IMG/VR virus record: IMGVR_UViG_3300047548_000106
Coordinates: 1-47,401 of that record
DNA length: 47,401 nt
From: a virus
Strand: one strand, 5' to 3'
Shown here: piece by piece, positions 6,601 through 32,862 of the stretch
Layout: every line of letters starts with the position of its first letter
How positions within the stretch are numbered: the stretch's first letter is position 1
Program-made: the position numbers and the translations under genes
Notes under the pieces: model-generated
Database searches by the model: none
What the model saw: the letters and a program-made list of their open reading frames with translations, nothing else
What the model was told of the DNA's origin: nothing

Positions 6601-7585
6601 CAAGGTTGGGTCAGATAACTTCTCTATTGGTGCAATAAAATTCTTTATGCTGGGAAAAATATCAGATTCTGATACAGATGTTTCAATAATGGAAATAAAG
6701 CATAGCGATGGAACATTGTCATTAATTCTTAATAATACTGATGCTGGAATGACATTTTCTTTATATAACAAGGGTGATGCACTATTCTTAGATGGTGGAA
6801 GTGCATCAACTCAAATATTCACTGAGACAGTAGATGCTGGAGATTCAACAGATAATTTTGATAGTGAAATAAACATAACAATGGCGTCATCATCAATTGT
6901 TGAAGCAGAATATGAAGAACTGTCTGGATTTAGTTTCTATCAGAATGGAAAATATGTAAAGAATCCTATCATCAATAATTATGAATGGAATCATATTGGC
7001 ATTGTTTTTCCAAGCAGTCTTGATTTTAGTCAATATACAGAGGGAGCAATAAGTCTTCTAGGAGGCTTTGTGTTTAACAATGTTTCATATTATTTGACTG
7101 AAGGGCTTGGAATACAAACAGACATTAGTCTTCGCGTCTGGGAAAATGTGTATCAGGATGATATTGCTGCTGCTGTAGGAGATGGAACATATGTGACGTA
7201 TACCACAACCATTCCACACCCACTCGCCGCAGGGCAGAGTGTAAAAATAACTGGAAGCAATCCTTCACAGTATAACTTTACGGGAACCGTATATTCTGTA
7301 ATAGATGAATATAATTTTAAGGTTTCAAGTTCAGCAACTGGTGCGTATGTTGGAAGCGGTGTCCTTACCTATATTTGGAGTGATTGGTCACAAAAGAAAT
7401 GGTCAGATGTATACGCAATTGGAAGAACATCGTCTTACATCAGTACACCTGAAGATATTTTTAATGTATATGCTGGTACAAACAGGAACGTTATTGACGA
7501 CGATTCTGGAATTTCGTTAACACAAATAGAAACAGTGGCAATAAATAGTGTATCGTGGTCAGTTTATAGTGGCAAACCTGCATAA
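3650..7585 (+). CDS. large structural protein with LamG-like domains, probably tail-associated
   Basis: The protein has 1311 residues. The N-terminus (HPIALWSLDE, about residues 19-28) resembles the first strand of concanavalin or LamG-like jelly rolls. Further LamG-like stretches occur near residues 288-365 (YTLEMWVKL through ALLINGEEVI) and 558-640 (VYGIFEIES through IINGEEI). Near the C-terminus (about residues 1174-1241) lies a small beta domain (HPLAAGQSVKITGS) that recurs in other tail proteins here. No catalytic motif or membrane segment is seen. Binding of host surface glycans is plausible for such domains but is inference. Codons are strongly AT-rich (AGA, ATA, AAA) compared with the reductase and portal. 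The start follows the -10 element by 7 bases with no ribosome binding site. Confidence 0.7.
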   Translation: MGINTDAGNQYATKVYEEHPIALWSLDEDAFYLSLIDDNDRKFTNWTLTACTASNSPTIPDEPADFPDSIYSSLEKSSGTAGTITAISSNTFQLSDIDTEITTFCVNFWLYHQPTYVNWFKFGYQYTHATLGTQTILSDPISPATISSWLNFNQVYEIPDNWTGYIKLIIMVDFDATSTASERTVIMNGLSVGQNSQNTCFVSLGSTREVLPDEIDFVDMEGISADEYGVNFNNGYYLIKGNKLLAKNDVMPIIYGTNNSTNIYPSGTDEPSFIFPGKGMLYENGRNKQYTLEMWVKLDPLTSVAKKIIGPINSNDGIWVKDGFITLVVGNEIGSHCVGEWYRPMLVHFIINSNNVALLINGEEVINMTYDRENIDLPSTQDWWGVYSYTSFNMFHIDTISIFPYQIAEIVAKKRFVYGQGAPSVQTLDSSFGGTPITIDFSTSEYSANTIYPDIARWDAGYFNNLSATRNYIAVPNYSLPTIYLGSRDIYEWYSDNYIVNTLDYPDVPHPNFVTFRPNITYDINSDPVSWSTTGTNYTESCYFNFPSLNILTDPVVAVYGIFEIESNISSERTLMSFVNNITGTSFNIVIFEDEVRYIINGEEIHSDIINIGEEALVGLNFSQAGSHFGYAVSQFFASPSSIQLYIGGNGQNTFEGKIYDVGFCNQINYQEIEAEYPNNEVFMTNGLTDYTNFQLLFNHIASYTLIPEYEYNKFYMDISVSSRWEEYFPLTQFAGYVRDENGDLYYDLDLMQVNVGYTYAPIAQWTYEELGNAFIYQTYADLNASYNTYFDLKMNNGTTETVGIPKSSLRSYITFQSIADGANKPLSDFTYTKSIPDNYVIDADLETYPYDTKFEFVDNTIVYAPKDQNFEDYAMVVHFYIKQRSIIKNPLKIRNLEITSKNFNYVDDQNTGSYVGTKFGTKVYPEIVKTSGLDYKDKNPYLIYKTNTPYTYTTKKSGIEVVNKYLLTNPSTSNQYRISIPINKVGSDNFSIGAIKFFMLGKISDSDTDVSIMEIKHSDGTLSLILNNTDAGMTFSLYNKGDALFLDGGSASTQIFTETVDAGDSTDNFDSEINITMASSSIVEAEYEELSGFSFYQNGKYVKNPIINNYEWNHIGIVFPSSLDFSQYTEGAISLLGGFVFNNVSYYLTEGLGIQTDISLRVWENVYQDDIAAAVGDGTYVTYTTTIPHPLAAGQSVKITGSNPSQYNFTGTVYSVIDEYNFKVSSSATGAYVGSGVLTYIWSDWSQKKWSDVYAIGRTSSYISTPEDIFNVYAGTNRNVIDDDSGISLTQIETVAINSVSWSVYSGKPA

Positions 7586-17322: not shown

Positions 17323-20300
17323 ATGGCTGATGTTAATGCGAATATTAATATAGGTATTAATACTAGTCAGGCACAGGCTCAATTACTTAAATTACAAAAT
17401 CAAATATCTGCATTCAATAAATCATTAGCCATATCTGATGCTGGATATGGGCAAATGCTGTCTCGTGGCATTAATGCCACAAGAATGTTTGATGCACAAA
17501 TAGTTCCAGCAACAACAAGTGTTGAAAGATTTTCTAGAGCAATTGAGAACAATAAACTCTCGCTTGGACAATACGCTCGTTTAACAGCATCTCAACTTCC
17601 TGGTCTGGGTAAAGTATTCAGATCAGAGTTTGACATGATGGAGAAAGTTGCCGTCAGCAGAGTTAAGAAAATACAGTCTCAATACGTTGCCCTTGGAAAA
17701 TCTGCAAAGAATACTCAGCAGGCACTCCAAATAATGCCAAGAGGATTAGCACAGGGATATGCGACAGACATTGCAGTAGCAACACAAAAGCAAGTTCTAT
17801 TCAATAAGTTGCTTTCTGATGGATCAACCAAATTGCTTAACTGGGGTAAGAATACACAGTGGGCAGGAAGACAACTTATGGTTGGTCTTACTCTGCCAAT
17901 GGCAGCATTTGGTGCCGCAGCGGCTAAGGCATTTATGGAACTTGATAAGGCTACAGTTGCATTGTCAAGAGTCTATGGTGATCTTAGCACCACAACACAA
18001 GAATTAGACAGAAACGTTGATGCAGTTAAAAGACTTGGTGCAGAATACACTAAATATGGAATATCTGTCAAAGATACTATAGATATATCTGCTCGTGCCG
18101 CTGCAACTGGTGCAAAAAATGAAAGCCTCCTTGCTGCAACAGAACAAACACTAAGGTTTGCCACTCTTGGCCAAATGGATTACAATAATGCACTTGATAC
18201 AACAATTTCTTTACAAACAGCATTTGGCATAAGTAATGACAAGTTAGGTGAAAAGATTGATTATCTAAACGCTGTTGAAAACCAAACAATTCTTACTATG
18301 GAGGATATGTCTCTTGCAATTCCTCGCGTAGCGACTGTAATCAAAGGACTTGGTGGAGATGTTGAAGATCTTGCCGTAATGATGACGGCAATGCGCGAAG
18401 GCGGGGTAAGTGCAGAAAATGCTGCTAACGCTCTTAAGTCAGGTCTAGCATCAATGATTAATCCAACTAGGGCTGCTCAGCAAGCATTGGCAAAACTTGG
18501 CATAGATATGAATGGAATTGTCCAGGCTAATAAGGGAGACCTTCTTGGAACCATTCGTGCCTTTGGAGCAGAACTAAACAAATTAGGATCTTTTGAAAGA
18601 CAGCAGGCATTAGAAAAAGTATTTGGAAAGTATCAGTATGCAAGAATGTCTGCACTTTTTACAAACATTACTAAGCAGTCTAGTCAGGCGGCAAGAGCAA
18701 TGGATCTTGCCACTATGTCTGCTCAAGATCTTGCAAATATTGCCAACAAAGAACTTAGCAAGGTATCAGAGTCAACAACTGTTAAATTCCAGGCAGCATT
18801 AGAAAAGTTAAAGATTTCCATCGCCCCTCTTGGAGAGGCATTCCTTAAGGCTATTACACCAATAATCAACCTTGTATCAAAGGTAGCAGATGCATTCAAT
18901 AATCTTCCAGATGGCGTAAAGAATGCTATGGCAGTTGCAACTGCTGCAATTGCAGGAATTGGCCCAGTATTGCTTATGGGAATCGGTTTGATGGGAAACC
19001 TTATTGCTAACGTTATTAAGGGTGTTGAGTGGTGGAGAAAGTTAGGCGCAAGACTTAAGGGAACAAGTTCACAATTTGAGTTTCTTACAGAAACAGAACT
19101 ACTAGCCAATTCTGCAACAATGGCGTTAGAAGGAAGTTCTGGAAAACTTACAAGATCATTATTGCTACAAAAGGGTGCTGTTAGTGCGCTTACTACAGAA
19201 TATGAAAGATTTGTAACAGCAGCAGGAGTTGCTGGAACGGCAATGGGTGGTGTAGCGACTGGTGGCAGGACAGGAAAAAGAAATCTTCCAAATGCAAGAA
19301 TGCGTTTTGCAGAGGGTGGAACTGTTCCCGGCACTGGAAATAAAGATACGATTCCAGCCCTTCTTACCCCTGGAGAAAGTGTTATTACTAAAGAGGCTAC
19401 TAAGAAATACGCTCCAATTCTTCATCAAATGAATAACGGAACTTTGCCAGGATTTAATAGTGGGTGGGTAAACCTATTTAAATCAATAACTACAAAGGTC
19501 GGTGGGGCAAGAGCAATAATGCCAAACATTAGACCATCTTCTAGAGTAGTAAAAGAACCAGGAGCACTTGGATACAATATACTTGAAAGACAAAGCGGAT
19601 CAAGGGGTGCAGCATGGCAGGAGGGATATGGGTATCTTCCAGAAGTATCTAAGTTAGCAGGAAGAACTAGAGTAAAGGCAGGTAAAGTTGTTGGTCATAT
19701 TTATTCTAAAGAGTTTTATCAAAGATTTGGTGGAGTAGGAACAACTGGATCTTCCCCAAGACTACTGGGAAGAGATATTCCAGGACAGTCTGGTAGAAAA
19801 CTAAATCCACAAAGATACCATGACGTTCTTCCATCACAATACATCCTCATTGATGAAAATTGGAATAAACTTATTGCGCCAAATTCGCTAAAAAAGGCAA
19901 CGGCAAATGACTGGAAGCCAGTATCTGGAAGAGACATGATTTCAGTTTTGCAAATGCTTATGTCAAGAGGTGTTCCAGAAAATATAGCAATGCAAGTAGC
20001 AAGCAAAGCAGCACAAATACTGAATACAAGAATTCGTCAAACATACGGGTCAATTGACGAAATCTTATTTGGAGAAATTGCTACTGGTTCTAGCGTTCAA
20101 GCACTTAAGTCTTCTTCAAGATTATTAGAACAATATGGGCCAAGAGAATTTGCTGGCGGTGTTGTTGGTTTGCAGCAATCTCTTCGTACATGGCAAACAA
20201 GTTCACGACAGGTTAGAGAAACGCCAGAAATGCTTTTTGCAATTATGTCTGGAATGAAGCCAACACGAAAGAATATGAAACTTCACAGATCTACAACACT

Positions 20301-23300
20301 TGGACTATCAAGGGGAAGCGAATTTATTCCACAAGACGAAGCAATGATCTTTGAGGCATTAAAAAATGGAAACCTTGAAGGTCTTATAGGAAAGACACTT
20401 ACGGCAAAGGGACCAATATCTTATACTTCAGCAGGAATTTCTGGAACGTATGGGGCACTTTCATCAAATTCAGACGTAAACAGAATTGAATTTCTTAAGC
20501 AACAAACTAGGATAGATAGAAAATCATATAGAAACAATATATCTAGACTTAAGAGATATGAAGAAGAGTTGGCAAGATACGAGACATCTGGGGCAAGTCA
20601 GATAACAATAGATGCAATAAAAAGAAGGATAGCAGAAACCAAGCAATATATTGAAACAGCCAAAAATGGTAGAGGAATGCTTGGAAAAGAGATAAAGAGT
20701 CTTGCTCCAAAGGGATATAGAAATCTTCTAATTGAACAGTCATTTGGTGCTGGCCATCCAATGATTAATGTAAACAAGGCTAATCCTGGTGGAACATATA
20801 TGGGAAGAGATGTTTCTCATGAACAAGAATTTATCGCCAGTGGCTCAAAAATGATGGTAACTGGAGTTTCTATAGATCCAAAAACTGGCTTGCCAATTCT
20901 TCAAACAAAAACATTACAACCCTTTGCAACTGGAGGAACTGTTCCAGGTGTGGGAAATTCAGATACAGTGCCAGCACTCCTGACACCTGGGGAATCTGTC
21001 ATCACTAAAAAAGCAACGCAAAAATATGGCTCAATCATTAGTGCAATGAATAACGGGACTCTTCCAGGATTTGCTTTTGGAACTGGAGAGGGAGGGGTTC
21101 CAGAACCAAGCGGAAGAGTTGGCGCTAGTGGAAGAAAGGTACCGTGGCTTCAAACCCTAGCATCACTTGAAAAGAAAGATCCAAGAAGGGCTGCAATGCT
21201 TCGTGCTCAACTAGCAGAAGAAATGTATGTCCAGCAAGCAATGGTTCGTGCAGGATATTCTGCAAGAGACATACCAGTCGCTGGAGGTCATTTAGAACAA
21301 AGACCTGGAATGAAGACATCATTTCAAGATGTTAAAAGTGTTCCACCACAGGCACAAGCATTTAATAATATTGCACAAAGTCTTTCAGATCCAAGGGTAA
21401 CTGGAGTTGGTCATGAAAATCAAATTAAGGCTGCACAAATAAAAAGAGATGCAATTCAAAAAGCACTTTTTAATATAACTAAAAAAGACGCAAAAGCACA
21501 AGCATCTGTTCCAAAACTTATGGAAAGTCTTTCAAAAGGAAGTAAACTTACTTATAAGCAAAATCAATTATTGGCAAAAGCATTTAATGAATTATCAACA
21601 AATACAGCAGCATATCAAAAAGAATTAGGTCAACTTAGTAAAACACAGCAAAGAAAGTTTATTAAAACTGGTGGACAGTTTATTGCTGGAGCAGAAGCAC
21701 AAAAATATTATAGAGAAAATGTTGGTAAAAATCCATCATTGAGAACAACATCTTTTTCAGCCTTTGAGGCTCAAGCAACAAGGACAACCGCAACAACAAG
21801 TGTTCGACAGTCTGTTAGATCATCAGATCTTCTTGCTAGACAATTAATGGAAAAATATCCAGGAATGACCGAAAGACAAGCAATAACTGCTGCAAAAAGA
21901 ATGTCAAATTCTGCATATAAAAGAGCAATGACAGATTGGCGAAATGGTGTATTGACTGGAGAAAAGCCAAATGCAAAAACCGTTGGTGCCGAATTATCAA
22001 AAAGAATCGCAGTCCCAATGAGGGGAACTACAGCAGAACGTAGAGCAAATCTTGAAACAAGAAAACAAGAAAGACTTTCTAGACAGTTGGAACAGAGGGC
22101 TAATAGAATTATGGCTCGTAGACCAAGTTTGACTAGTGAGCAGGCTCAAATAATTGCTGGAAGACAAATGGGAATTGTTGAAAGGCAAAGTAATGCAAAA
22201 ATACTAGCAGAAAGAGAAGCGGCAGCAAAAAGAGAAGCATATGCTCGTAAAACAAAAGCAATGATGGGTGGTGCTGGACTATTGGCGTTGGCTCCAATGG
22301 TTGGTCCAAAAGATGAACAAGGAAAATTCCTTGGAATGGACCCATTCATGGCAATGATTGGAGCACAAATGATTGCACAGCCGCTTGTTGGTGGAATTCG
22401 TGGCGCGGTGGGTAAATCAGCAAAATACGGTGGACCAGGGTTTGGGTATAGGGCTTTGCCAAATGGTGAAAAGGCAGTGACAAGAACGGGAGCAATGTCA
22501 AAGGCATTTACCGCAGGACTTAGCAAACTACCTGGCCTTGGTGCATTAGGATCAATTGGTGCTGGCGGCGCAATAGCAGTAACTGGAGGGGTGGCGGCGG
22601 CATTTGCTGCGCTCGCTATAACGGCGTGGACACTGAAAAAGGGTATGGACAACACTATAGATGCTGGAAAAAAATATGCAGATGCACTTACTATATCAAC
22701 AAAAGAACAAAATGATATTGCAGCACTTTTTGGAAGAACTACTCTTGCAAGCCGTAGAAGAGCAAAAGACATACAAAAGAATATTGGTCTTACAACCAAA
22801 GAACAACAGATGGGCGCAGAATTTGTAAAAACTGAACCAGGAAAAGCGATGCTTGAAGAAATGAAAGTTTCTTTAGAAAAAGGAGGAACAACATTTGGAA
22901 ACAATCTTGCATCACAAATTGGTAGACTGATAGTTAGCGGAGCGGTAAATCCAAAACAAGCAAAAGCAATCGTTGTTGGACTTACCGAAGCACTTGGAAA
23001 ACCAGAAATGGCAATTCCAATTATTACAAAGGTAGAACAAATTGTTGGTCCAAATGGTCAAAATTTATCAAAAGATCCATTAAAGGTAATAGACAATTTA
23101 ATAAATTCCATTGATCAAACGAACAATGAACTAACAGTCAGTTCAGAAAGAGCCGCTAAGCAAGCGACAAATTCTTGGACAGACAACTTTCTTGGACTTG
23201 GGATTCTATATTCTGGCGAAATGGATGCAATGATTGAGGCAGATATAGCCAGAGCAAATGCTTATTTAGAAAATACAAAGCAAATATTAACTGCAATCGA

Positions 23301-26300
23301 TGACGAAATATCTAGACAAGATATTCTTATTGCACGACTTAAGGAAAAAAGAGGCTTAGAAGATGACAAAAAGAAAAAGGCTGGGTATACGTCAGATATC
23401 AAAGAAGCACAAGCAAACAAAAAAGCATTAGAAGAAAGAAGGGCTAGGGAAGAGGCAGATCGAAGGCAACGTGCAATTAATATGTATACAGGTGGAGGAA
23501 ATGTTGATCAAAAATTCACCGCTGGATTTGGTGCAGTTGAAGAGGCAACTGGAATAATGGATTTAGAAGGAGCAGTAAATAGAGCAATTTCTGACACTAA
23601 ACTTGCCAGAGAAGTACAGGCTGCCGCAGTGAAACCGGAGGAATTGTCACAGGAAACAAGAAACAGATTAATGGCAAATGGTGTATTGGCATATAGGTCA
23701 ATTACTCCAGGAGGAAAGCCTCAATATGTAGTACAACAGCAAGCAGCCTATCAGAATGAAGTAAAGTTTGATCCAAATTTTAAGGCAATGTTTCCAGAAA
23801 TGAACGAAGATCAAATTAAAGCAAGTCTGCTTGTGGATATAGAATTAGGAAAGGTTGATCCTAAGACACTGGCAACATTAGATATGTTGGATCAAGGAAC
23901 AAAGGGTCTAGCGTTAAAGTTTTATCTTAAAGGTAATTATAAAGAGTTTGCAGATATTGCTGCCATCGGAAGCATGGGAGATGATGTTAAAACTGCATTT
24001 GCAGAAATACAAAAGGATACAAAATATACAGAAGATCAGATTGCTGGACTCGCTGGAGTTCTGGTGTCACTAGGAAATGATGTAGATCGTAGCAAGTTGC
24101 TTGAAGCATTTAGAGGTGGTGCAGATGGAATTGACGACTTTATAAAATCTGCAAAAACATTACAAGATATGAAACTTGATCTTGCATCAATATTTGCAGT
24201 TGGAGGAATAGCAGGAGTAAATAAGGCAGCAGAGGCAATTGATGGCATTACTGGTGCGTTAAAGAAAAACTCAAAAGCAATAGGTGATATTAAAAAACAA
24301 AAAACCTTTGGTGGAAAATTAGAAAAAACAATAGACGTTGTGACAAAGGTTGCAACTGATACTGGTGAGGAATATCTGAAAGATTTAGATCCCGAAAAAG
24401 TAAGGGCAAGTTTGAAAGATATTGCCGATAAAACTGGTATGAGTCAAAAACAGGTTCTTAATCTCCCTCCAGATGTAATCGTCAGTTCTATTGTTATGGA
24501 TATTAGTGGAGATGAATTAATTAAACAGGGGCAGGGGATGATAAGTAGCGCCACAGTTGGAATATTGCAAAATGTTCCTGAAGCGCAAGTTTTATATAAG
24601 CAGGGACAAGCATTAGTTGACATGGGAAATCAATTAAATGGAGCGGCTTTATCAAGTGTGATCAATGCAAAAAAACCATGGTTGCCTATAAATCAACCAC
24701 AAGGTGGAACAAAGACAGATTATGTTAAAGACATGATGAAGGGTTTTCTTGATCAAGTTAATATATATGCCGATGCTGGTGCAACAATGAAAAAACTAAC
24801 AAGTTCAACATATGATTTTGCTAAAAAAATTGCGGCACAAGGAAAAGCAAATGGTGGACTTATTCAGCAACTTAGAAATCTTGGATTGTCAGAAAATATT
24901 ATTGCTCAACTTGCATCACAAGGAAAAGATGCTCTTGCTCAAGCAGTAAAAAAGTATGCGGGTAAAAGAGATAATGCCAAGGTGATTGGCGCAAATCTTG
25001 CAGAACAAAGAGCAACAATATCTAGGCTTATGGGACAAGCAACAGAAAGAGTTGGTGCTGCACAAAGAACATTATCAGTAACACGAACACTTGCAGGAAG
25101 AGGTCTTTCTCCAGAACTCATTCAATCAATAACTAATGATCAAGAGTTTGTCAATCTTATTAATAAAAAAGGTGGAGGAAAAGAAAAAAGACAACAGATT
25201 GAAGGCATAATAGCAAAGTATAAAGAAGAACTTGCTCTGATAAAACAAATTGCTAGAGAACAAGATCCAATTCAAACAAAAATTGATGACGAAACAATTG
25301 CACATGAAAGAGCAAATAGATTATTAGAAAAAGATATTCAAATAGAACAAGATAAGATAGATGCAATACAACAACAAATTGACTTGCTTAATGAAATGAA
25401 TGATGCAGATCAGCAAAGAATTCGCACGCTTGAACGTGAAAAGGAAATGATTCAGCGTAAAATTGACAGTTATGAACGTGAAAATGAAATGGATCAAAGA
25501 TCTATTGAATCATTAAGAAGACAAGATGAGATGAGGAATAGAATATCGGATAACCTATCTCACGAACTAGAACTCATGTCTCAGCAAGAAGATAAAATTC
25601 GTAAATCATATGATGAAAGAATCAAGGCTCTTGACACTATTGCATCAATTAATGATCATATTCTGAATCAACAAAAGAATCAATTAAGCGTTGCACAAGC
25701 GTTAAGTCAGGGAGACATCTATGCCGCCGCACAAGCAACACAAGGTATGCAAGCAGAACAGGTTCAGTTTGTTACTCAGCAACAAAGAGATGCCCTTGAG
25801 AAAGGCATGGAAAATCAAATTGCTGGACTCCGTACTTCTGGCGGTCTAACAAGAGATCAGGCAGAACAACAGATAAATGATATTAAGGAACAGTCATATC
25901 AGGTATCACTTAGAATTAGAGATATTGAGGATCAAATATATAACAGAAATCTCACAATAACATCGCTTAAAGATCAAATCTACAATAAGGATTTGTCAAT
26001 ACGCGGAATTTCAGACATTATTTATGGAAGAGAGACAGAGATTCTTAATATACAAAATAATCAATTGAAGCCAGTACAGACTAGACTCTCATTCCTTGAA
26101 AAGCAAAAAGAAATTCAAGACAGAATATTCAATGACAGAGTAGACGAACTTAATCTTCAGGCTGAGCAGGCTGGCATGACAGACGATCAAATTAAAAAGG
26201 TCGGAGTATTAGCACAACAATGGCAAGAAGTTTCAAAACAAATAAAGTCTGCAAGAGATAACGCAGACCTTGCTAATAAAAATTTGGGAATTCAGCCAAT

Positions 26301-26796
26301 ACAACAAGCAGGAGAACCAGATGAAAGTTATAAGAATAGACTAAAGAAATGGCAAGATGCAAAAAAGACAATTTCTGAAACAGAGCGAAATGCTATTAAT
26401 GCTGCATATGGAACAGGAATGGAATATTTCAAAACACTAAAGTTTGCTACTGGTGGAAGAATATCTGGTAACGGATCAAGAGATTCAATTGCTGCACAAC
26501 TTACCCCTGGAGAATATGTCATTAGAAAGTCAGCAGTAAATAAGTATGGGGCAGCCATGTTTGACAAAATTAATATGGGGTCATTTGAAATGCCAAGGTA
26601 TAACATTCCTAGAACAACTTCAGTAAATGCAAGACCAAGCAATGTTTCTACAACTGTTGCTCCAGTGTATAATAGTTACAGCATCAATGTTCCTGTAAAT
26701 AACCCAGGAGCATCTGCTGAAGAGATTGCTCACGTTGTTATGACCAAGATACGAGGCGTAGAAGGTGCGTCAATTAGGAGAATAAATGGATATTAA
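17323..26796 (+). CDS. tape measure protein with embedded ADP-ribosyltransferase-like domain
   Basis: The 3157-residue protein sets tail length and is injected or threaded with DNA. Residues about 205-400 match the TP901/PhageMin_Tail core (LDKATVALSRVYGDL, GGDVEDLAVMMTAMREGGVS). Hydrophobic segments near 186-205, 535-565, 1645-1660 and 1750-1780 could cross the host membrane. Three GG-x(4)-G-x(3)-D-x(5)-LTPGE modules lie at 662-711, 1201-1250 and 3041-3088. Between the first two is a 490-residue insert whose end resembles an R-S-ExE ADP-ribosyltransferase (R989, S1033/T1035/S1036, E1167-x-E1169). Residues about 2645-2950 are a long coiled coil. Codons are AT-rich (AGA, ATA, AAA). The gene follows the chaperones, as expected, and overlaps the next gene by 11 bases. 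Confidence 0.9.
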   Translation: MADVNANINIGINTSQAQAQLLKLQNQISAFNKSLAISDAGYGQMLSRGINATRMFDAQIVPATTSVERFSRAIENNKLSLGQYARLTASQLPGLGKVFRSEFDMMEKVAVSRVKKIQSQYVALGKSAKNTQQALQIMPRGLAQGYATDIAVATQKQVLFNKLLSDGSTKLLNWGKNTQWAGRQLMVGLTLPMAAFGAAAAKAFMELDKATVALSRVYGDLSTTTQELDRNVDAVKRLGAEYTKYGISVKDTIDISARAAATGAKNESLLAATEQTLRFATLGQMDYNNALDTTISLQTAFGISNDKLGEKIDYLNAVENQTILTMEDMSLAIPRVATVIKGLGGDVEDLAVMMTAMREGGVSAENAANALKSGLASMINPTRAAQQALAKLGIDMNGIVQANKGDLLGTIRAFGAELNKLGSFERQQALEKVFGKYQYARMSALFTNITKQSSQAARAMDLATMSAQDLANIANKELSKVSESTTVKFQAALEKLKISIAPLGEAFLKAITPIINLVSKVADAFNNLPDGVKNAMAVATAAIAGIGPVLLMGIGLMGNLIANVIKGVEWWRKLGARLKGTSSQFEFLTETELLANSATMALEGSSGKLTRSLLLQKGAVSALTTEYERFVTAAGVAGTAMGGVATGGRTGKRNLPNARMRFAEGGTVPGTGNKDTIPALLTPGESVITKEATKKYAPILHQMNNGTLPGFNSGWVNLFKSITTKVGGARAIMPNIRPSSRVVKEPGALGYNILERQSGSRGAAWQEGYGYLPEVSKLAGRTRVKAGKVVGHIYSKEFYQRFGGVGTTGSSPRLLGRDIPGQSGRKLNPQRYHDVLPSQYILIDENWNKLIAPNSLKKATANDWKPVSGRDMISVLQMLMSRGVPENIAMQVASKAAQILNTRIRQTYGSIDEILFGEIATGSSVQALKSSSRLLEQYGPREFAGGVVGLQQSLRTWQTSSRQVRETPEMLFAIMSGMKPTRKNMKLHRSTTLGLSRGSEFIPQDEAMIFEALKNGNLEGLIGKTLTAKGPISYTSAGISGTYGALSSNSDVNRIEFLKQQTRIDRKSYRNNISRLKRYEEELARYETSGASQITIDAIKRRIAETKQYIETAKNGRGMLGKEIKSLAPKGYRNLLIEQSFGAGHPMINVNKANPGGTYMGRDVSHEQEFIASGSKMMVTGVSIDPKTGLPILQTKTLQPFATGGTVPGVGNSDTVPALLTPGESVITKKATQKYGSIISAMNNGTLPGFAFGTGEGGVPEPSGRVGASGRKVPWLQTLASLEKKDPRRAAMLRAQLAEEMYVQQAMVRAGYSARDIPVAGGHLEQRPGMKTSFQDVKSVPPQAQAFNNIAQSLSDPRVTGVGHENQIKAAQIKRDAIQKALFNITKKDAKAQASVPKLMESLSKGSKLTYKQNQLLAKAFNELSTNTAAYQKELGQLSKTQQRKFIKTGGQFIAGAEAQKYYRENVGKNPSLRTTSFSAFEAQATRTTATTSVRQSVRSSDLLARQLMEKYPGMTERQAITAAKRMSNSAYKRAMTDWRNGVLTGEKPNAKTVGAELSKRIAVPMRGTTAERRANLETRKQERLSRQLEQRANRIMARRPSLTSEQAQIIAGRQMGIVERQSNAKILAEREAAAKREAYARKTKAMMGGAGLLALAPMVGPKDEQGKFLGMDPFMAMIGAQMIAQPLVGGIRGAVGKSAKYGGPGFGYRALPNGEKAVTRTGAMSKAFTAGLSKLPGLGALGSIGAGGAIAVTGGVAAAFAALAITAWTLKKGMDNTIDAGKKYADALTISTKEQNDIAALFGRTTLASRRRAKDIQKNIGLTTKEQQMGAEFVKTEPGKAMLEEMKVSLEKGGTTFGNNLASQIGRLIVSGAVNPKQAKAIVVGLTEALGKPEMAIPIITKVEQIVGPNGQNLSKDPLKVIDNLINSIDQTNNELTVSSERAAKQATNSWTDNFLGLGILYSGEMDAMIEADIARANAYLENTKQILTAIDDEISRQDILIARLKEKRGLEDDKKKKAGYTSDIKEAQANKKALEERRAREEADRRQRAINMYTGGGNVDQKFTAGFGAVEEATGIMDLEGAVNRAISDTKLAREVQAAAVKPEELSQETRNRLMANGVLAYRSITPGGKPQYVVQQQAAYQNEVKFDPNFKAMFPEMNEDQIKASLLVDIELGKVDPKTLATLDMLDQGTKGLALKFYLKGNYKEFADIAAIGSMGDDVKTAFAEIQKDTKYTEDQIAGLAGVLVSLGNDVDRSKLLEAFRGGADGIDDFIKSAKTLQDMKLDLASIFAVGGIAGVNKAAEAIDGITGALKKNSKAIGDIKKQKTFGGKLEKTIDVVTKVATDTGEEYLKDLDPEKVRASLKDIADKTGMSQKQVLNLPPDVIVSSIVMDISGDELIKQGQGMISSATVGILQNVPEAQVLYKQGQALVDMGNQLNGAALSSVINAKKPWLPINQPQGGTKTDYVKDMMKGFLDQVNIYADAGATMKKLTSSTYDFAKKIAAQGKANGGLIQQLRNLGLSENIIAQLASQGKDALAQAVKKYAGKRDNAKVIGANLAEQRATISRLMGQATERVGAAQRTLSVTRTLAGRGLSPELIQSITNDQEFVNLINKKGGGKEKRQQIEGIIAKYKEELALIKQIAREQDPIQTKIDDETIAHERANRLLEKDIQIEQDKIDAIQQQIDLLNEMNDADQQRIRTLEREKEMIQRKIDSYERENEMDQRSIESLRRQDEMRNRISDNLSHELELMSQQEDKIRKSYDERIKALDTIASINDHILNQQKNQLSVAQALSQGDIYAAAQATQGMQAEQVQFVTQQQRDALEKGMENQIAGLRTSGGLTRDQAEQQINDIKEQSYQVSLRIRDIEDQIYNRNLTITSLKDQIYNKDLSIRGISDIIYGRETEILNIQNNQLKPVQTRLSFLEKQKEIQDRIFNDRVDELNLQAEQAGMTDDQIKKVGVLAQQWQEVSKQIKSARDNADLANKNLGIQPIQQAGEPDESYKNRLKKWQDAKKTISETERNAINAAYGTGMEYFKTLKFATGGRISGNGSRDSIAAQLTPGEYVIRKSAVNKYGAAMFDKINMGSFEMPRYNIPRTTSVNARPSNVSTTVAPVYNSYSINVPVNNPGASAEEIAHVVMTKIRGVEGASIRRINGY
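19306..19455 (+). repeat. LTPGE module, copy 1 (tape measure residues 662-711)
   Basis: The encoded segment starts FAEGGTVPGTGNKDTIPALL, continues TPGESVITKEA and ends MNNGTLPGF. It matches copy 2 closely in protein while the DNA differs at many third positions, so the duplication is old. It marks the left border of the 490-residue insert. Confidence 0.85.
20230..20907 (+). other. ADP-ribosyltransferase-like domain within the tape measure (about residues 970-1195)
   Basis: Three spaced motifs match R-S-ExE ADP-ribosyltransferases: Arg989 in KLHRSTTL, the SYTS segment in AKGPISYTSAGIS (residues 1028-1040), and Glu1167-Gln-Glu1169 in HEQEFIASGSKMMVTGV. The last resembles the family pattern E-x-E followed by a Gly-Ser/Thr turn and a strand. 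Order and spacing are right for the fold, with a longer insertion between motif 2 and motif 3. The call is from motif reading alone; an inactive relative is possible. It ends directly before LTPGE copy 2. Confidence 0.5.
20923..21072 (+). repeat. LTPGE module, copy 2 (tape measure residues 1201-1250)
   Basis: The segment starts FATGGTVPGVGNSDTVPALL and ends MNNGTLPGF, the same length (50 residues) as copy 1 with no gaps. It closes the insert that carries the transferase-like domain. Confidence 0.85.
25924..26046 (+). repeat. short coiled-coil repeats in the tape measure C-terminal region
   Basis: Within residues about 2868-2908, three adjacent segments share the pattern [IL]-x-D-x-IY-[NG]-[RK] followed by a closing Ile: IEDQIYNRNLTI, LKDQIYNKDLSI and ISDIIYGRETEI, spaced 13 residues apart. 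They extend the long coiled coil that precedes LTPGE copy 3. The repeat is recognisable only in protein. Confidence 0.6.
26443..26586 (+). repeat. LTPGE module, copy 3 (tape measure residues 3041-3088)
   Basis: The segment FATGGRISGNGSRDSIAAQL, then TPGEYVIRKSAVNKYG, is a more divergent copy near the C-terminus. It has the same GG, D and LTPGE core as copies 1 and 2 and follows the coiled-coil region. Confidence 0.75.
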
Positions 26797-27424
26797 TCCC
26801 GCAAATCCCTCCGCTACATCTACTTATATTGCTGGTAGAAAGAGATATCCTCGTCCACAGGCAATGCTGTGGTCAGACAATTCTGGAACTATTGTGAATG
26901 GGGTCAGGGTTCCAGGAGGCACAGAAAAAGAAGACTTCATTATTTGCTCAGATCATAATAGAGGCGAAATGTCTATCATGCCACAGCGTATTGAATCAAG
27001 ACAAAGAATGATTAACGGAACAATGAGATCATACCATATTGCCGATAAGATTAGGTTATCTGTGTCGTGGGAAAGACTTCCATCTCGTTCATATTCAAGA
27101 AACGTAAACTTTGATAGTTCTGGAAAGCCAGTCATGATAACTGGTGATACAGAATACACCGCAGACGGTGGTGCTGGAGGTGTGGAACTGCTAGACTGGT
27201 ATGAAAACCACCCTGGACCATTTTATGTATATCTTGCTTATGATAAGTACAATAATAATTCTTTCAAGGTGTCACAGCAAATAACCGATGCCTCATTTGA
27301 GCATCTAAATGTATATAATGATGTTAGGCTTATGTATTTTTCAGAATTTCAGTATTCTGTTCAAAAAAGAGGCGGAACAAATTTTGATATGTGGTCAGTT
27401 TCTGTATCTATGGAAGAGGCATAA
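26786..27424 (+). CDS. distal tail protein (minor tail)
   Basis: The 212-residue protein follows the tape measure gene, overlapping it by 11 bases, where siphophages encode the distal tail (Dit-like) protein that joins tube and tip. It is beta-rich, with ADKIRLSVSWERLPSRSYS, GGVELLDWYENHPGPFYVYL and FSEFQYSVQKRGGTNFDMWS. The closing strand pattern (MWSVSVSMEEA) is common in distal tail proteins. No enzymatic motif is visible. GGAGAATAA before the ATG provides a ribosome binding site. The next gene starts in the stop codon (TAATG). Confidence 0.7.
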   Translation: MDINPANPSATSTYIAGRKRYPRPQAMLWSDNSGTIVNGVRVPGGTEKEDFIICSDHNRGEMSIMPQRIESRQRMINGTMRSYHIADKIRLSVSWERLPSRSYSRNVNFDSSGKPVMITGDTEYTADGGAGGVELLDWYENHPGPFYVYLAYDKYNNNSFKVSQQITDASFEHLNVYNDVRLMYFSEFQYSVQKRGGTNFDMWSVSVSMEEA

Positions 27425-30400
27425 TGTTTAAAGATACAGATCTTGAAAATGCTCTTAAATATAACCATACAATAGAAAGCAATCAAGCAGTATGGCTTGA
27501 GTGGAATCTTAATCAATCTTATAATATTGACAAGGTAGGAAATTATCGTTACCGCCCAGGTACGGTAGATCCCTTTTACGGAGTCATTCGTAATATCTAT
27601 GAAGCCAATGAAACCGTAACGGATACTTTTCGTGGGTATTATACGGGGGCAACAGATTCAGACATCATCATTGATGCTGGAATAGATGATGATATTAATG
27701 ATCCAAAGCCATCATATTTATTGACAGACGACAAGAAGATCAATCTAATATATTCACTTGAAGATTGTTTTAAGCAAAATAGACCACGGTCTGGCATCAA
27801 CAAACTTATTTATTTAGGTAATGTGTCAAATGTTGTGAATCACGGAAGTTATTCCGTCGCAGAAGGTCAATATATTGATAGCCTCAATTCGTTTAAGCAA
27901 TTAAAAACAGCAGTCATTACTAACGCATCATCATCTGGTGGCTTGCTTACCTATACAGCAGAACACAATTTTGTTGCTGGGGATTATGTAAAGATTACTG
28001 GAATTGCAAACTATCAGGTATCTCCACCCATTACATCGGATTACAATTTTGTAGATCCGCAAAGAGTTCTTTCTGTTACATCAAATACATTTTCTATTGC
28101 GGGGTCCACCGCTCAAACATATACTTCTGGCGGTGCAGCAGAAGTTGGATATTTATCTAGCGTTAATGTCGCTCGTCGTCCTAGATATTACATGGGATCA
28201 CGATATGATGACTTTAGATATTGGACTTCTTATAGAGAAGAGGTTTCTAAAAATGCAGATGGCTCAGGAACAAATGAGGAATATGGTATTGCAAGAAATG
28301 AAACCGTTGGAAATCCAGCATCATATTACATTTATGATGCTGCTCCATTTGTTGTATACAAAGAAAAGGTTCCAGCAAATCGCGTAACTGTCAAGATGCA
28401 AACAAATGTGGGCGAAGTCAATAATGGTCCATACAGAATAGGAAATATTGCCAATGTTCTAGATCCACTATATGGAGATGCAAACAGAACCGTTCCTATC
28501 AGATGGGCGATACAAAAACTTAATGCTGATAATGAGTGGGTAGAGATTATTTCATTTAACGAATCATCTGTTAGATCGGACGGAAGCCAGATAATTGGCT
28601 CAGATGGTCATGTTGAAATTGAATATGGACTCTCTATTCCAGATCAGTATGCACAAACATTTTTGTTTGCTGGAGAAATATCCTCTCTTTCTCTTAGACC
28701 AGACCTAGCACCAGAGGGATATGCTTACTTATATAAAGAATCAGAAACAGACAAGGGTACGCTGTTTATTAGCGATGGTGGAAACTGGGTAGTATTTCCC
28801 ACACAGTATGAATGGAAACTTTCTGAAAGTGACATAACACGAAACACAAAGGTTATCAAGCAACTGACTAACCCACACTACTATGTTGAGAACAACGAAA
28901 AGGTTTATAGAGATTTTGAATTTCTTTATGGTTTGAGAGTTGTTGCAGAAACAATGAATAGGAAAAACTCTACGTTCGACCTCATAGAACTTTCTCCAAG
29001 ACTTGTTGCAGATATTTCTGATAAAACAATATCCTATTCTATTTCTAAAACACTGTCAGACCTTGGCAGTTTCCCAATGCCTATGGGAAATCTTATTGCA
29101 TCAACTGGTCAGATGTCATTATTTGACGATGACCTTGCATTTAATGAAAACAATACATTTGATGAAGAGTCAAATCTTGGAAGCATTATTAGTCAATATT
29201 CGAACGGTAGACTAAAGTTTACATTCTATGACATTGTAAAAAATATCAATTCTTATGATTATTACATACCAGTCAAAACAATGTATTCAGAAAAAATGCC
29301 ACAGGTTAGCGATACCGCTGCCACGCTAAACGTAAACCTCAGAGATTTATTCTTCTTACTGGAATCAAAGAAATCACCAGAACTCTTACTTACAAACGTT
29401 TCTCTTAGTTATGCAGTCATGGTTCTTCTTGATAACATTGGATTTAGCAACTATAAGTTCAACAGATTGTATGGAGAAGACGAACTTATTATTCCATATT
29501 TCTTTGTTGGTCCAGATCAAAACGTTGCAGAAACATTGCAGCAGTTGGCGGTATCATCACAAAGTGCCATGTTCTTTGATGAATATAATGATCTTGTCGT
29601 AATGTCAAAGAACTACCTTCTTCCTTCATCAACAACAGATAGAAGAACAGATCTTGTTCTATATGGTCAAGAGGAGGCTGACGACAATGGCATTGCTTTG
29701 CCAAATATTATCAATCTTGCATCACAAGAAAAACTTGTATATAACGGTGGAGAAATAAATTATACAACTAGATATATTCAGAAAAGCATTGGGTCAATTG
29801 CCCAGGCACCATATTCAGAAGAATACAAGACATATGTCTATAAGCCATCACTGCTATGGGAAATTGCTGGTCAGGAAAATGTAAGAACAGTAAATGAATC
29901 TGCAACACAGTCTAGCGGATACTCTCTATCAGCCATGCCACTTAAGACTGCACTAACATCAAGCGTTCCAGTATATTCTGACGGACAACTTCTCAACAAC
30001 ATCATGGACTTTGGCGAAAACATTTATTGGCTTGCAAATTATTCAGGATACTTTTATGCAAATGGAGAGATTATAAGATACGATGCAGTAGAATATTCTG
30101 TTGCTGGGGTGGGAAATGTTTGGATTACCAATAATCATGAATACCAGTCTTATTTTGCCAGACTAAAGTTTAATGGAAAAATGTATCCTACAGGAAGAGT
30201 GAGGATTTATGCCAAAGTCAGCGATGGAGCAGTAAAAGAACATGGCCGCGCTCAATTTGGCACAACTGCTGTAGAGCATACAGCGGGCATAGAAGGAACA
30301 CCCTGGACTGATGTTAATTATGTACGGGGTTCTATTCAAAACGCCAAACAATATTTATTTAATACTAACGATACGATTGTTTTGCCAGACAATTCTGGAA

Positions 30401-32862
30401 TAGATGAGGCAGGAAACAAGCAGTCTATTAATGGTCAAGAATATGTTGCAAAGTCATATGCAGACAATTCATCAAGAAACGGAATCATTAAAAACTTTAT
30501 GGCAAACACAACCATAACCGAGAATGATGTTAATGCCTATAAAACAGCATATTCTGGATCTGTACAAACTTCGGCCCTGGTATTTAGTGGACCAGCAACA
30601 ATTCCATCAGTTATTGACCCAGCAAACTTCCTCACATATGTATATAAGCCACTTGACAAACCATTCAGACACTTTGGAACAAGAATGAGAATAATTGGTA
30701 GGATTGAGACTGGATCAAATAAAGCACAAACAGCCATTGGTTCATTTGACTTATATTCATTTAATGCAGCAGCCTCAGAAGATCCAGATAAGCAGGTGTC
30801 AATATCTGGTGGATCTGGTGGTGTAGCATTTGGATTAAATAAAGATACTAATGTTGGGTACTATTTTGAAATTGCTGCACTTAATCAAGATAAGGTGTCT
30901 TCTTATAAAAATAATTCAAATGGACTAAGTTATTCAATTCTGGAAAGCGCCAGCGGCATATCTGTAACAAATGATTTAGTAACAATTAGGCTTAAAGAAC
31001 AACATGCTCTAGATGTCGGATCTATTGTGGTTGTATCTGGCGTTATTGATGACAATAATAAGGATAAGCCAACAAGAATTAGCGGAGAATTTACTGTAAC
31101 GCAGATTTCTCAAGACAGAAAATCTTTTCAGTACGAACTATTAAAATCAGATCCACTTGTTGCAAGTGTAACTGCTGCTGTTGCAGATGGATCAAAGATT
31201 GTGTATACGTCTAATAATCATAACTTTAGTGCTGGCCAGCATGTGACGATTGCTGGATTTGCCAATACTACATTTAATCTTGTCAATGCAGTAATTACAG
31301 CAGTAGATTTCCCAGTTGATGCAGACAATACTTTTACTGTAGAATCAGCAATACCAGCACAAAGTCAGTCTGGGCAAACAGCAACTGCGACATATCTTTC
31401 TCTGACAACAACATCGTCTACTGGTGGAACTGTATTTGTTCAAAATAACGGAGACACAACAATATCAGACGTATTCTTCTATAAAGTGGTTTCTGGTTCA
31501 AACCAGGCAGACATACTTAAAAAACAAAGGGTAGCAGATACGGTAACTCTTACTACCCTTAGGGATCATAGCCTATCTGTAGGAGAATCAGTAACAGTAT
31601 CTGGTGTAGGATCTGGTCTTGACGGAACGTTTATTATTACGGCAATTGGAGACAAGTCCTTTGAGTATAAAACTACAACATCTGGAACTGTCTCTCTTAC
31701 TACACTAAGTCCACTTGGCCTTGCAGTAAGCAATAATAAGGTTGCCATACCTCAACTTTTATGGAGAGGCTTATCTGGAATCATCGTTGATGATGGAAAG
31801 TTTACTACACAGTCAAGACTGAATACTTCAGAAAAAACAACGGTATATGATTTATCAGCAGAATATGTAGACAGCGGAAGCATAAGGACGTTCTATCTTT
31901 ATCTCAATGACAAGCAGGTTGCTGTTGTTGATGATACAGATCCACTTCCAATATATGGAAACATGGCGCTATTTGTTCGCGGTACATCAAGGATCATGTT
32001 TGAAAATGTATTTGCTCTATCAGATGACTTTGCTAACAATACTGCCAAAACGCTACAACTTCCAATATCTAAAGCATTTGGCGAACCAGAGGTTACTGGA
32101 CAAAATGCTTTGAGAAAGTATGCAATTAGCGGAATGGTGCAAAACACATATCTATCTGGTGTTAGTTCTGAGTCTACTCCAAAATATATTCTTTACTATG
32201 ATGAGTTTGGAACCATCATGAGAGAAGCGGCATATTTTAATATACGATATGATCGTGCATTCCCAGCACTCTATTCTCAACTTGCTCCAACTCTCAACAG
32301 TGTTCGTGGATACACTAAATCTGGATTCTATGGATGGTCATATGGAGCAGAATTCCTTATCTTTAACGCAATAGATAAGAACCTAAATCTTGATGATACA
32401 ACTGGAAACTATCTAAGAATACTTGGAATTGCATTTACTCAAAACACAACTCATTCGCTGAAGTTGGATGACTTCTTTAAAAAGAATAGTAATTTTGTTA
32501 ACAGTATTTATAACGGTACAAACTCAGATGAATACCGACAACTTTATACTGATATTCTCAATAGCAGAAATAAGTATGGAAGAAATGATTTTGCTCTAGA
32601 TACACAGTATGTACAGACAGATGCGGCGGCAGAGTCAATGATGGAATGGATTGTTAAGAAAATCGTATATCCAAGAAAGGCTGTAGGCGTCAACACGTTT
32701 GGAACCCCACATTTGCAACTTGGAGATATTGTAGAAATAAATTACAAGAATTCTGATAACATAGATATTGTTGCTCCATCGTCAACTAGATTTGTTGTAT
32801 ACAACATTCAGTATCAAAAGTCAAACGATGTAACAACAACAGTTTATTTGGCGGAGGTATAA
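27424..32862 (+). CDS. large minor tail protein (tail hub / tip protein)
   Basis: This 1812-residue protein comes after the distal tail gene, the position of Tal-like hub or tip proteins. It is strand-rich throughout. Four copies of a small beta domain occur at about residues 163-242 (HNFVAGDYVKITGI), 1185-1245 (HALDVGSIVVVSGV), 1249-1326 (HNFSAGQHVTIAGF) and 1372-1430 (HSLSVGESVTVSGV); related copies occur in neighbouring proteins. Residues near 1440-1560 look like a LamG-like lectin fold (DLSAEYVDSGSIRTFYLYLN). The C-terminal block (QLGDIVEINYKNSDN, YQKSNDVTTTVYLAEV) resembles the end of phage hub proteins. I chose ATG 27424 (TAATG overlap); a GTG at 27391 would overlap the previous gene and has no ribosome binding site. 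Confidence 0.75.
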   Translation: MFKDTDLENALKYNHTIESNQAVWLEWNLNQSYNIDKVGNYRYRPGTVDPFYGVIRNIYEANETVTDTFRGYYTGATDSDIIIDAGIDDDINDPKPSYLLTDDKKINLIYSLEDCFKQNRPRSGINKLIYLGNVSNVVNHGSYSVAEGQYIDSLNSFKQLKTAVITNASSSGGLLTYTAEHNFVAGDYVKITGIANYQVSPPITSDYNFVDPQRVLSVTSNTFSIAGSTAQTYTSGGAAEVGYLSSVNVARRPRYYMGSRYDDFRYWTSYREEVSKNADGSGTNEEYGIARNETVGNPASYYIYDAAPFVVYKEKVPANRVTVKMQTNVGEVNNGPYRIGNIANVLDPLYGDANRTVPIRWAIQKLNADNEWVEIISFNESSVRSDGSQIIGSDGHVEIEYGLSIPDQYAQTFLFAGEISSLSLRPDLAPEGYAYLYKESETDKGTLFISDGGNWVVFPTQYEWKLSESDITRNTKVIKQLTNPHYYVENNEKVYRDFEFLYGLRVVAETMNRKNSTFDLIELSPRLVADISDKTISYSISKTLSDLGSFPMPMGNLIASTGQMSLFDDDLAFNENNTFDEESNLGSIISQYSNGRLKFTFYDIVKNINSYDYYIPVKTMYSEKMPQVSDTAATLNVNLRDLFFLLESKKSPELLLTNVSLSYAVMVLLDNIGFSNYKFNRLYGEDELIIPYFFVGPDQNVAETLQQLAVSSQSAMFFDEYNDLVVMSKNYLLPSSTTDRRTDLVLYGQEEADDNGIALPNIINLASQEKLVYNGGEINYTTRYIQKSIGSIAQAPYSEEYKTYVYKPSLLWEIAGQENVRTVNESATQSSGYSLSAMPLKTALTSSVPVYSDGQLLNNIMDFGENIYWLANYSGYFYANGEIIRYDAVEYSVAGVGNVWITNNHEYQSYFARLKFNGKMYPTGRVRIYAKVSDGAVKEHGRAQFGTTAVEHTAGIEGTPWTDVNYVRGSIQNAKQYLFNTNDTIVLPDNSGIDEAGNKQSINGQEYVAKSYADNSSRNGIIKNFMANTTITENDVNAYKTAYSGSVQTSALVFSGPATIPSVIDPANFLTYVYKPLDKPFRHFGTRMRIIGRIETGSNKAQTAIGSFDLYSFNAAASEDPDKQVSISGGSGGVAFGLNKDTNVGYYFEIAALNQDKVSSYKNNSNGLSYSILESASGISVTNDLVTIRLKEQHALDVGSIVVVSGVIDDNNKDKPTRISGEFTVTQISQDRKSFQYELLKSDPLVASVTAAVADGSKIVYTSNNHNFSAGQHVTIAGFANTTFNLVNAVITAVDFPVDADNTFTVESAIPAQSQSGQTATATYLSLTTTSSTGGTVFVQNNGDTTISDVFFYKVVSGSNQADILKKQRVADTVTLTTLRDHSLSVGESVTVSGVGSGLDGTFIITAIGDKSFEYKTTTSGTVSLTTLSPLGLAVSNNKVAIPQLLWRGLSGIIVDDGKFTTQSRLNTSEKTTVYDLSAEYVDSGSIRTFYLYLNDKQVAVVDDTDPLPIYGNMALFVRGTSRIMFENVFALSDDFANNTAKTLQLPISKAFGEPEVTGQNALRKYAISGMVQNTYLSGVSSESTPKYILYYDEFGTIMREAAYFNIRYDRAFPALYSQLAPTLNSVRGYTKSGFYGWSYGAEFLIFNAIDKNLNLDDTTGNYLRILGIAFTQNTTHSLKLDDFFKKNSNFVNSIYNGTNSDEYRQLYTDILNSRNKYGRNDFALDTQYVQTDAAAESMMEWIVKKIVYPRKAVGVNTFGTPHLQLGDIVEINYKNSDNIDIVAPSSTRFVVYNIQYQKSNDVTTTVYLAEV

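Follow-up and report, generated by a model that had tools for sequence, protein, structure and literature searches.

The window analysed here is the whole stretch of 47,401 nucleotides (47.4 kb) of the virus record IMGVR_UViG_3300047548_000106. Its gene order is of the tailed-phage type: ribonucleotide reductase, portal, head protease, major head protein, tail genes, a very long open reading frame (ORF), minor tail proteins, DnaB-like helicase, primase and DNA polymerase III alpha. The very long ORF encodes a tape measure protein (TMP) of 3157 amino acid residues, a kind of protein whose usual role is only to set the length of the tail. Residues 932-1200 of this protein form, very probably, an ADP-ribosyltransferase (ART) domain of the R-S-ExE class. 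The positions of the features are collected in Table 1.

The assignment of the long protein as a TMP rests on the Pfam profile PhageMin_Tail (PF10145), which matches residues 233-435 with an E-value of 1.3e-29, and on the PHROG tape measure profile with an E-value of 1.3e-102. About 650 N-terminal residues are conserved across 79 related TMPs, whose loci were taken from viral contigs. The closest named relatives are TMPs of Streptomyces phages with a residue identity of about 32-35%. Two scans of genome contigs, one with the ART and one with the TMP core as query, returned no relatives, and a search of an isolated-phage collection with three passengers (the segments described below) also returned none. 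No host or cultured representative is therefore known.

The ADP-ribosyltransferase domain

A sequence-only reading of the window had placed an ART-like domain at residues 970-1195 of the TMP. The domain is indeed present there, but it is larger, spanning approximately residues 932-1200 with a helical lead-in. The motif positions given in that reading, R989, S1033-Y-T-S1036 and E1167-Q-E1169 in the ORF at 17323-26796, are right. A homologous domain was found in one independent locus among the 79, L006 (47% identity, E 1e-70), and a second homologue, L084, was added through a profile scan (47% identity). In both proteins the domain occupies the same position and slot as in the window. Residues R989, S1033, T1035, E1167 and E1169 are invariant in the three sequences, so that neither Arg989 nor Glu1169, the two residues whose free variation would have spoken against the earlier proposal, varies in the homologues. 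The ExE triplets read EQE, ENE and EQE. However, S1036 is replaced by Ala in both homologues. The equivalent of the S-T-S motif is thus S1033-Y-T1035, a variant retained in all three sequences, and not the whole Ser-Tyr-Thr-Ser fragment that had been proposed. The contig L002/L015 is identical to the window over this region and was not counted as independent. A chimeric assembly is unlikely, as three contigs whose IMG/VR dataset identifiers differ share this arrangement. There is no compositional sign of a recent foreign origin of the ART segment.

The loose ordered pattern R..S.[ST]..E.E..G[ST] was matched by 8 of 2000 shuffled versions of the window TMP. Of a set of 80 TMPs, the window protein and its two domain homologues are the only ones that contain it.

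The structure of the domain was modelled with AlphaFold2 from the alignment of the three sequences, without templates, giving a predicted local distance difference test score (pLDDT) of 73.8. The conserved R989 is located on the first core strand (strand E54-62 of the model). In a Foldseek search of the PDB, all 50 of the matches listed are R-S-ExE ARTs, with a best E-value of 2.2e-4 and 34 matches at E ≤ 0.001. They include the C3 exoenzymes, Plx2A, VIP2, CDTa and iota Ia, and the fold predicted for the domain is thus the one that the earlier claim required. Among viral models (BFVD) the highest-ranking named matches are mycobacteriophage and Gordonia phage proteins that resemble VIP2. In the model, an antiparallel coiled-coil hairpin of 80 residues separates the S-x-T strand from the ExE half of the fold. 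The identity to the homologues is 53-58% in the ART core versus 27-33% (33/27%) in the hairpin, as would be expected if the core is under selection. VIA-align superposed only this hairpin, on unrelated long helices, an outcome due to the hairpin itself that speaks neither for nor against the ART core.

No significant match to the ART sequence was found in Pfam, PHROGs, PDB sequences or isolated phages. The profile-profile comparison that the sequence-only reading had called for relates the domain to VIP2-type ARTs from actinobacteriophages: hhalign of the three-sequence profile against eight such phage ARTs gave an E-value of 4.5e-5 and a score of 39, where 30 column shuffles reached at most 21, with ExE aligned on ExE. 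When the hairpin was removed, the alignment spanned the domain and placed R on R, and its score was 37.8, while the highest of 30 column shuffles scored 21.0.

The passenger slot and its occupants

The ART is flanked by two copies of a repeated module of about 52 residues, with the pattern GG.VPG.G..DT.PALLTPGE.VI..., which recurs across this TMP family. Around the ART slot the consensus is FA.GGTVPG.GN.DT.PALLTPGESVITK.AT.KY..I...MNNGTLPGF. Copies 1 and 2 are identical in 40 of 53 amino acid residues and 112 of 159 nucleotides. In nearly all related TMPs a module lies directly after the conserved core of about 650 residues, and in most of the complete ones it is found again about 100 residues before the C-terminus. 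At least one additional internal copy is present in 25 of the 55 TMPs that have both end modules. One TMP, whose contig ends inside it, has six copies altogether. The segments between modules, referred to here as passengers, are mostly 170-970 residues long.

These passengers are exchangeable. The TMP cores of L003, L004 and L022 are 64-67% identical to that of the window, yet none of their passengers is shared with it, while L006 shares the passenger of the window TMP. Residues 715-788 and the ART part of this passenger match L006, and most of residues 801-930 matches L084 only. The part upstream of the ART looks different in the two homologues, so the window passenger may itself be mosaic. 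L022 was considered as an empty site after module 2 and rejected, since what seems to match there is for the most part the module. No clear counterpart of the region after module 2 (window 21082-22300, residues 1254-1660) is seen in the other TMPs, and this region may be a further passenger.

Several other enzymes are found between modules in related TMPs. A kinase-like passenger occurs, in varying combinations, in 15 related TMPs that could be aligned. Its residues K70, E81, D153/D155, N160 and D168 (Lys, Glu, D-x-D-L...N, Asp) are invariant in the 15 sequences, and its AlphaFold2 model has a pLDDT of 83.4. All 50 of the VIA-align matches listed for this model are atypical kinase-fold entries, with Z-scores of 11.5 for CotH (the best), 10.2 for CtkA, 9.9 for PI4KII and 9.0 for HipA. 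With this fold and the Lys, the Glu, the catalytic D..N and the metal-binding Asp all in place, the passenger belongs with the atypical protein kinases. HAD acid-phosphatase-like domains are found in four TMPs, and in L039 and L046 the HAD domain directly follows the kinase-like passenger. L036 has the kinase alone, and L075 combines it with an unknown domain. The cytidylyltransferase-like passenger of L050 has a relative in L045.

A probable second ART type was recognized by eye, from its sequence motifs, in L044. Its relative in L095 is 78% identical, keeps all the motifs and starts at residue ~740. In L044 the candidate lies in the second slot, while in L095 it is found where the first slot would be, which points to a shuffling of passengers. 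Profile tests against the phage VIP2 ARTs were not significant for L044 (second slot) or L003 (fourth and fifth slots), and these remain leads. Further ART-like motifs seen by eye are LYRGF..SWT..GEKE and YHTGP..GVGTYFT (L003:17492-18613, L003:18770-19981) and HRSEN..GPGMYFA (L039:11501-12559). These L003 and L039 candidates found no support in profile or sequence tests, where run.

Two other large proteins of the window may be mentioned. The minor tail protein at 27391-32862 (1823 residues) has an E1_FCCH-domain match barely above the cut-off. The protein of 1311 residues encoded at 3650-7585, immediately upstream of the portal region, has neither a Pfam nor a PHROG match.

Table 1. Positions of the TMP, its ART domain and modules in the window, and of passengers in related loci (L-numbers)
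Feature	Position	Strand	Basis
Tape measure protein, 3157 residues, one uninterrupted ORF	17323..26796	+	Pfam, PHROG, conserved N-terminal part
ART-like domain, residues 932-1200	20116..20922	+	AlphaFold2 model, Foldseek, homologues L006/L084, hhalign
Arg989, R of R-S-E	20287..20289	+	Invariant in three homologues; on phage VIP2 Arg in hhalign
Ser1033-Tyr1034-Thr1035, S-x-S/T motif	20419..20427	+	Invariant in three homologues
Glu1167-Gln-Glu1169, ExE motif	20821..20829	+	Both Glu invariant in three homologues; on ExE of phage VIP2-type ARTs
Coiled-coil hairpin, 80 residues, inserted in ART fold, residues 1049-1127	20467..20703	+	Two long helices in model; lower identity than core
Module copy 1, residues 662-714, opens passenger slot	19306..19464	+	Module hidden Markov model (HMM), E 5e-27
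First part of passenger, residues 715-931	19465..20115	+	No Pfam or PHROG match
Module copy 2, residues 1201-1253, closes slot	20923..21081	+	Module HMM, E 2e-26
Module copy 3, C-terminal, residues 3041-3088	26443..26586	+	Module HMM, E 3e-19
Kinase-like passengers	L036:10557-11456, L039:9917-10765, L075:13142-13999, L044:12176-13054, L003:13190-14290 and ten others		
HAD acid-phosphatase-like domains (PF03767) in TMPs	L039:9887-11335, L046 (TMP frame), L004 (TMP frame), L005:10789-13653		
Cytidylyltransferase-like passenger in TMP slot	L050:12161-12682		PHROG, E 5e-9
Probable second ART type	L044:14318-15067, L095:7699-8448		By eye, FFRGTG..SAWS..ESE in L044; RG..S.WS..ESE in both

Comparison with known systems

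ARTs carried in virions are known from phage heads, namely T4 Alt, the MuF-VIP2 fusions and the polyvalent proteins. The MuF-VIP2 fusions of actinobacteriophages, for example gp4 of Microbacterium phage Percival (PMC7302621; MH271308), likewise place an R-S-ExE ART on a virion structural protein. They are predicted virion components and are related to the window ART by the profile comparison given above (E 4.5e-5). However, their carrier is the head protein MuF with the ART at its C-terminus, whereas in the window the carrier is a TMP and the ART, with its coiled-coil insertion, occupies an internal slot. Whole-protein Pfam and PHROG scans of the window TMP found no MuF domain and gave TMP matches only. 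T4 Alt is likewise a virion ART for which injection with the DNA is the proposed mode, and arginine specificity is probable, but Alt is a separate head-packaged protein with a known target, while the window ART is a domain of a TMP whose delivery is proposed here.

The polyvalent proteins (PMC5512222; PMC9503650) also combine several effector domains in one virion-borne polypeptide, and ARTs are the commonest modifying enzyme among them. They have been described for MuF, portal and head-packaged proteins and for conjugative elements, in contrast to the TMP carrier of the window, and TMPs are not mentioned in the text of these two papers. In a survey of NAD+-ADP-ribose systems in 21,191 viral proteomes, ARTs were found fused to MuF and other head-associated proteins (PMC9503650). 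Our phage VIP2-type ART query matched 214 phage records. The 60 of these that were listed are head-protein, protease or stand-alone genes, with no TMP among them.

The effectors of actinobacterial contractile injection systems (CIS), such as Sle1 (PMC13277306) and the S. davawensis effector (PMC11126660), resemble the window protein in having a TMP-like helical part with variable functional domains and in being loaded in the tail tube. These effectors are bacterial and carry the functional domains at the C-terminus, whereas the window protein is the genuine TMP of a phage, and its slot is internal and bounded by modules. A Sle1-type effector belongs to a CIS cluster lacking phage head genes, while the window encodes a portal, a head protease, a major head protein and replication genes. 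TMPs with peptidoglycan hydrolase domains (TM4; GH23 transglycosylases) also carry an enzyme domain inside the TMP, and such hydrolases are the TMP enzyme domains known so far (PMC10194240). They act on the cell wall from outside, but an ART implies a cytosolic or at least NAD+-containing site. Within the open-licence literature, where an unlisted precedent is possible, the window ART is best classed with the phage ADP-ribosyltransferases carried in virions, its carrier being new and having a modular slot for cargo.

Proposed role and its meaning

The comparisons allow us to propose that the ART is an active enzyme that travels in the tail as cargo and is delivered when the phage infects, a reading to which we give a probability of about 0.55. 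An R-S-ExE mono-ADP-ribosyltransferase would be carried as a passenger in the module-bounded slot of the TMP, which would fill the tail tube in the virion and be ejected ahead of or with the DNA. Ejection would put the ART part in or at the host cytoplasm, where, early in infection, it would transfer ADP-ribose from host NAD+ to a molecule of the host. Given the ExE form and the known biochemistry of ARTs, the likeliest acceptor is an arginine in a protein. The sequence-only reading had suggested RNA polymerase as a possible target, an idea borrowed from T4 Alt. The directly supported parts of this scheme are the ART fold, the invariant catalytic motifs, the open frame and the exchangeable slot with unrelated enzymes in related TMPs.

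NAD+ is cytosolic and is required by ARTs, so a wall-acting role for an ART inside a TMP makes little sense. TMPs act at the membrane while the DNA enters, which makes delivery with the DNA plausible, and the case is strengthened by the kinase, HAD and cytidylyltransferase passengers in equivalent slots of related TMPs. The lambda TMP is located at the inner-membrane ManYZ entry complex during DNA injection (PMC13190303), and TMP-related effectors are loaded in tail-like particles of actinobacteria (PMC13277306).

Several points weigh against this proposal. The confidence of the ART model is modest (pLDDT 73.8, predicted template modelling score 0.61), and the inserted hairpin probably accounts for its low global TM-scores (0.3-0.37). 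The Pfam family PF03496 (ADPrib_exo_Tox) was not matched at E ≤ 1 in the window record and 49 related records, so the domain is a divergent ART and is not filed in that family. The independent homologues are two only. In addition, the lumen of a siphophage tail is narrow and may not easily accommodate a folded passenger.

Alternatively, the ART might work in the producing cell or the virion, by late modification of host proteins, self-modification of the TMP or a block to superinfection, and not be injected. TMP genes are late structural genes and ejection is unproven by sequence, as this explanation would have it. However, an enzyme needed only in the producer would require no fusion to a TMP, and the kinase, HAD and cytidylyltransferase occupants repeat the pattern of virion-embedded effectors, which makes this explanation unlikely.

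It is a little less likely still that the ART fold is decayed or repurposed, in which case it would act only as a structural spacer or bind a component of the host envelope. The distance of the sequence from all known ART profiles and the large coiled-coil insertion might be taken in this sense, but the R, the S-x-T and both Glu residues are invariant in three homologues at about 47% identity, with drift in the hairpin but conservation in the core. We consider it improbable that the domain, in place of modifying protein arginine, consumes NAD+ or ADP-ribosylates nucleic acid in order to counter host defence or deplete NAD+. The involvement of phage NAD+-ADP-ribose systems in several conflicts (PMC9503650) agrees with such a function, as does the cytidylyltransferase in the equivalent slot of L050, whose fold includes NMN adenylyltransferases. 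The ExE form, however, is typical of protein-arginine ARTs, and the sequence does not reveal the acceptor of an ART with certainty. Finally, a chance arrangement of motifs in a helical TMP, suggested by the shortness of the loose motifs and the 0.4% of shuffled TMPs that match their ordered pattern, is contradicted by the agreement of the fold search, the shuffle-controlled profile comparison and the motif conservation, and is very improbable.

Returning to the delivered-cargo proposal, the TMP of this phage group might in general be a polymorphic effector carrier. The modules would mark exchangeable slots, which each phage would load with one to five enzyme passengers, among them the ART, the atypical kinase, the HAD phosphatase and the cytidylyltransferase. 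These would enter the host by way of the tail and reprogramme it as soon as infection begins, making a tail counterpart of the MuF and polyvalent effectors borne in heads. We regard the chances of this wider view as about even.

A domain-mosaicism survey had found a mosaic signal in TMPs, but genuine cases could not be confirmed (PMC10684548). The module-bounded passengers are explicit cases of such mosaicism. A TMP slot that holds a toxin-like ART where related phages carry a kinase or phosphatase suggests that the tail delivers host-modifying enzymes, and if this is true the tail is an effector-delivery device. The ART would also bear directly on whether, and how far, the TMPs of long-tailed phages enter the cytoplasm. 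The slot would offer a natural reporter for this, as a host molecule marked in an NAD+-dependent way would reveal that this part of the TMP reaches the cytosol.

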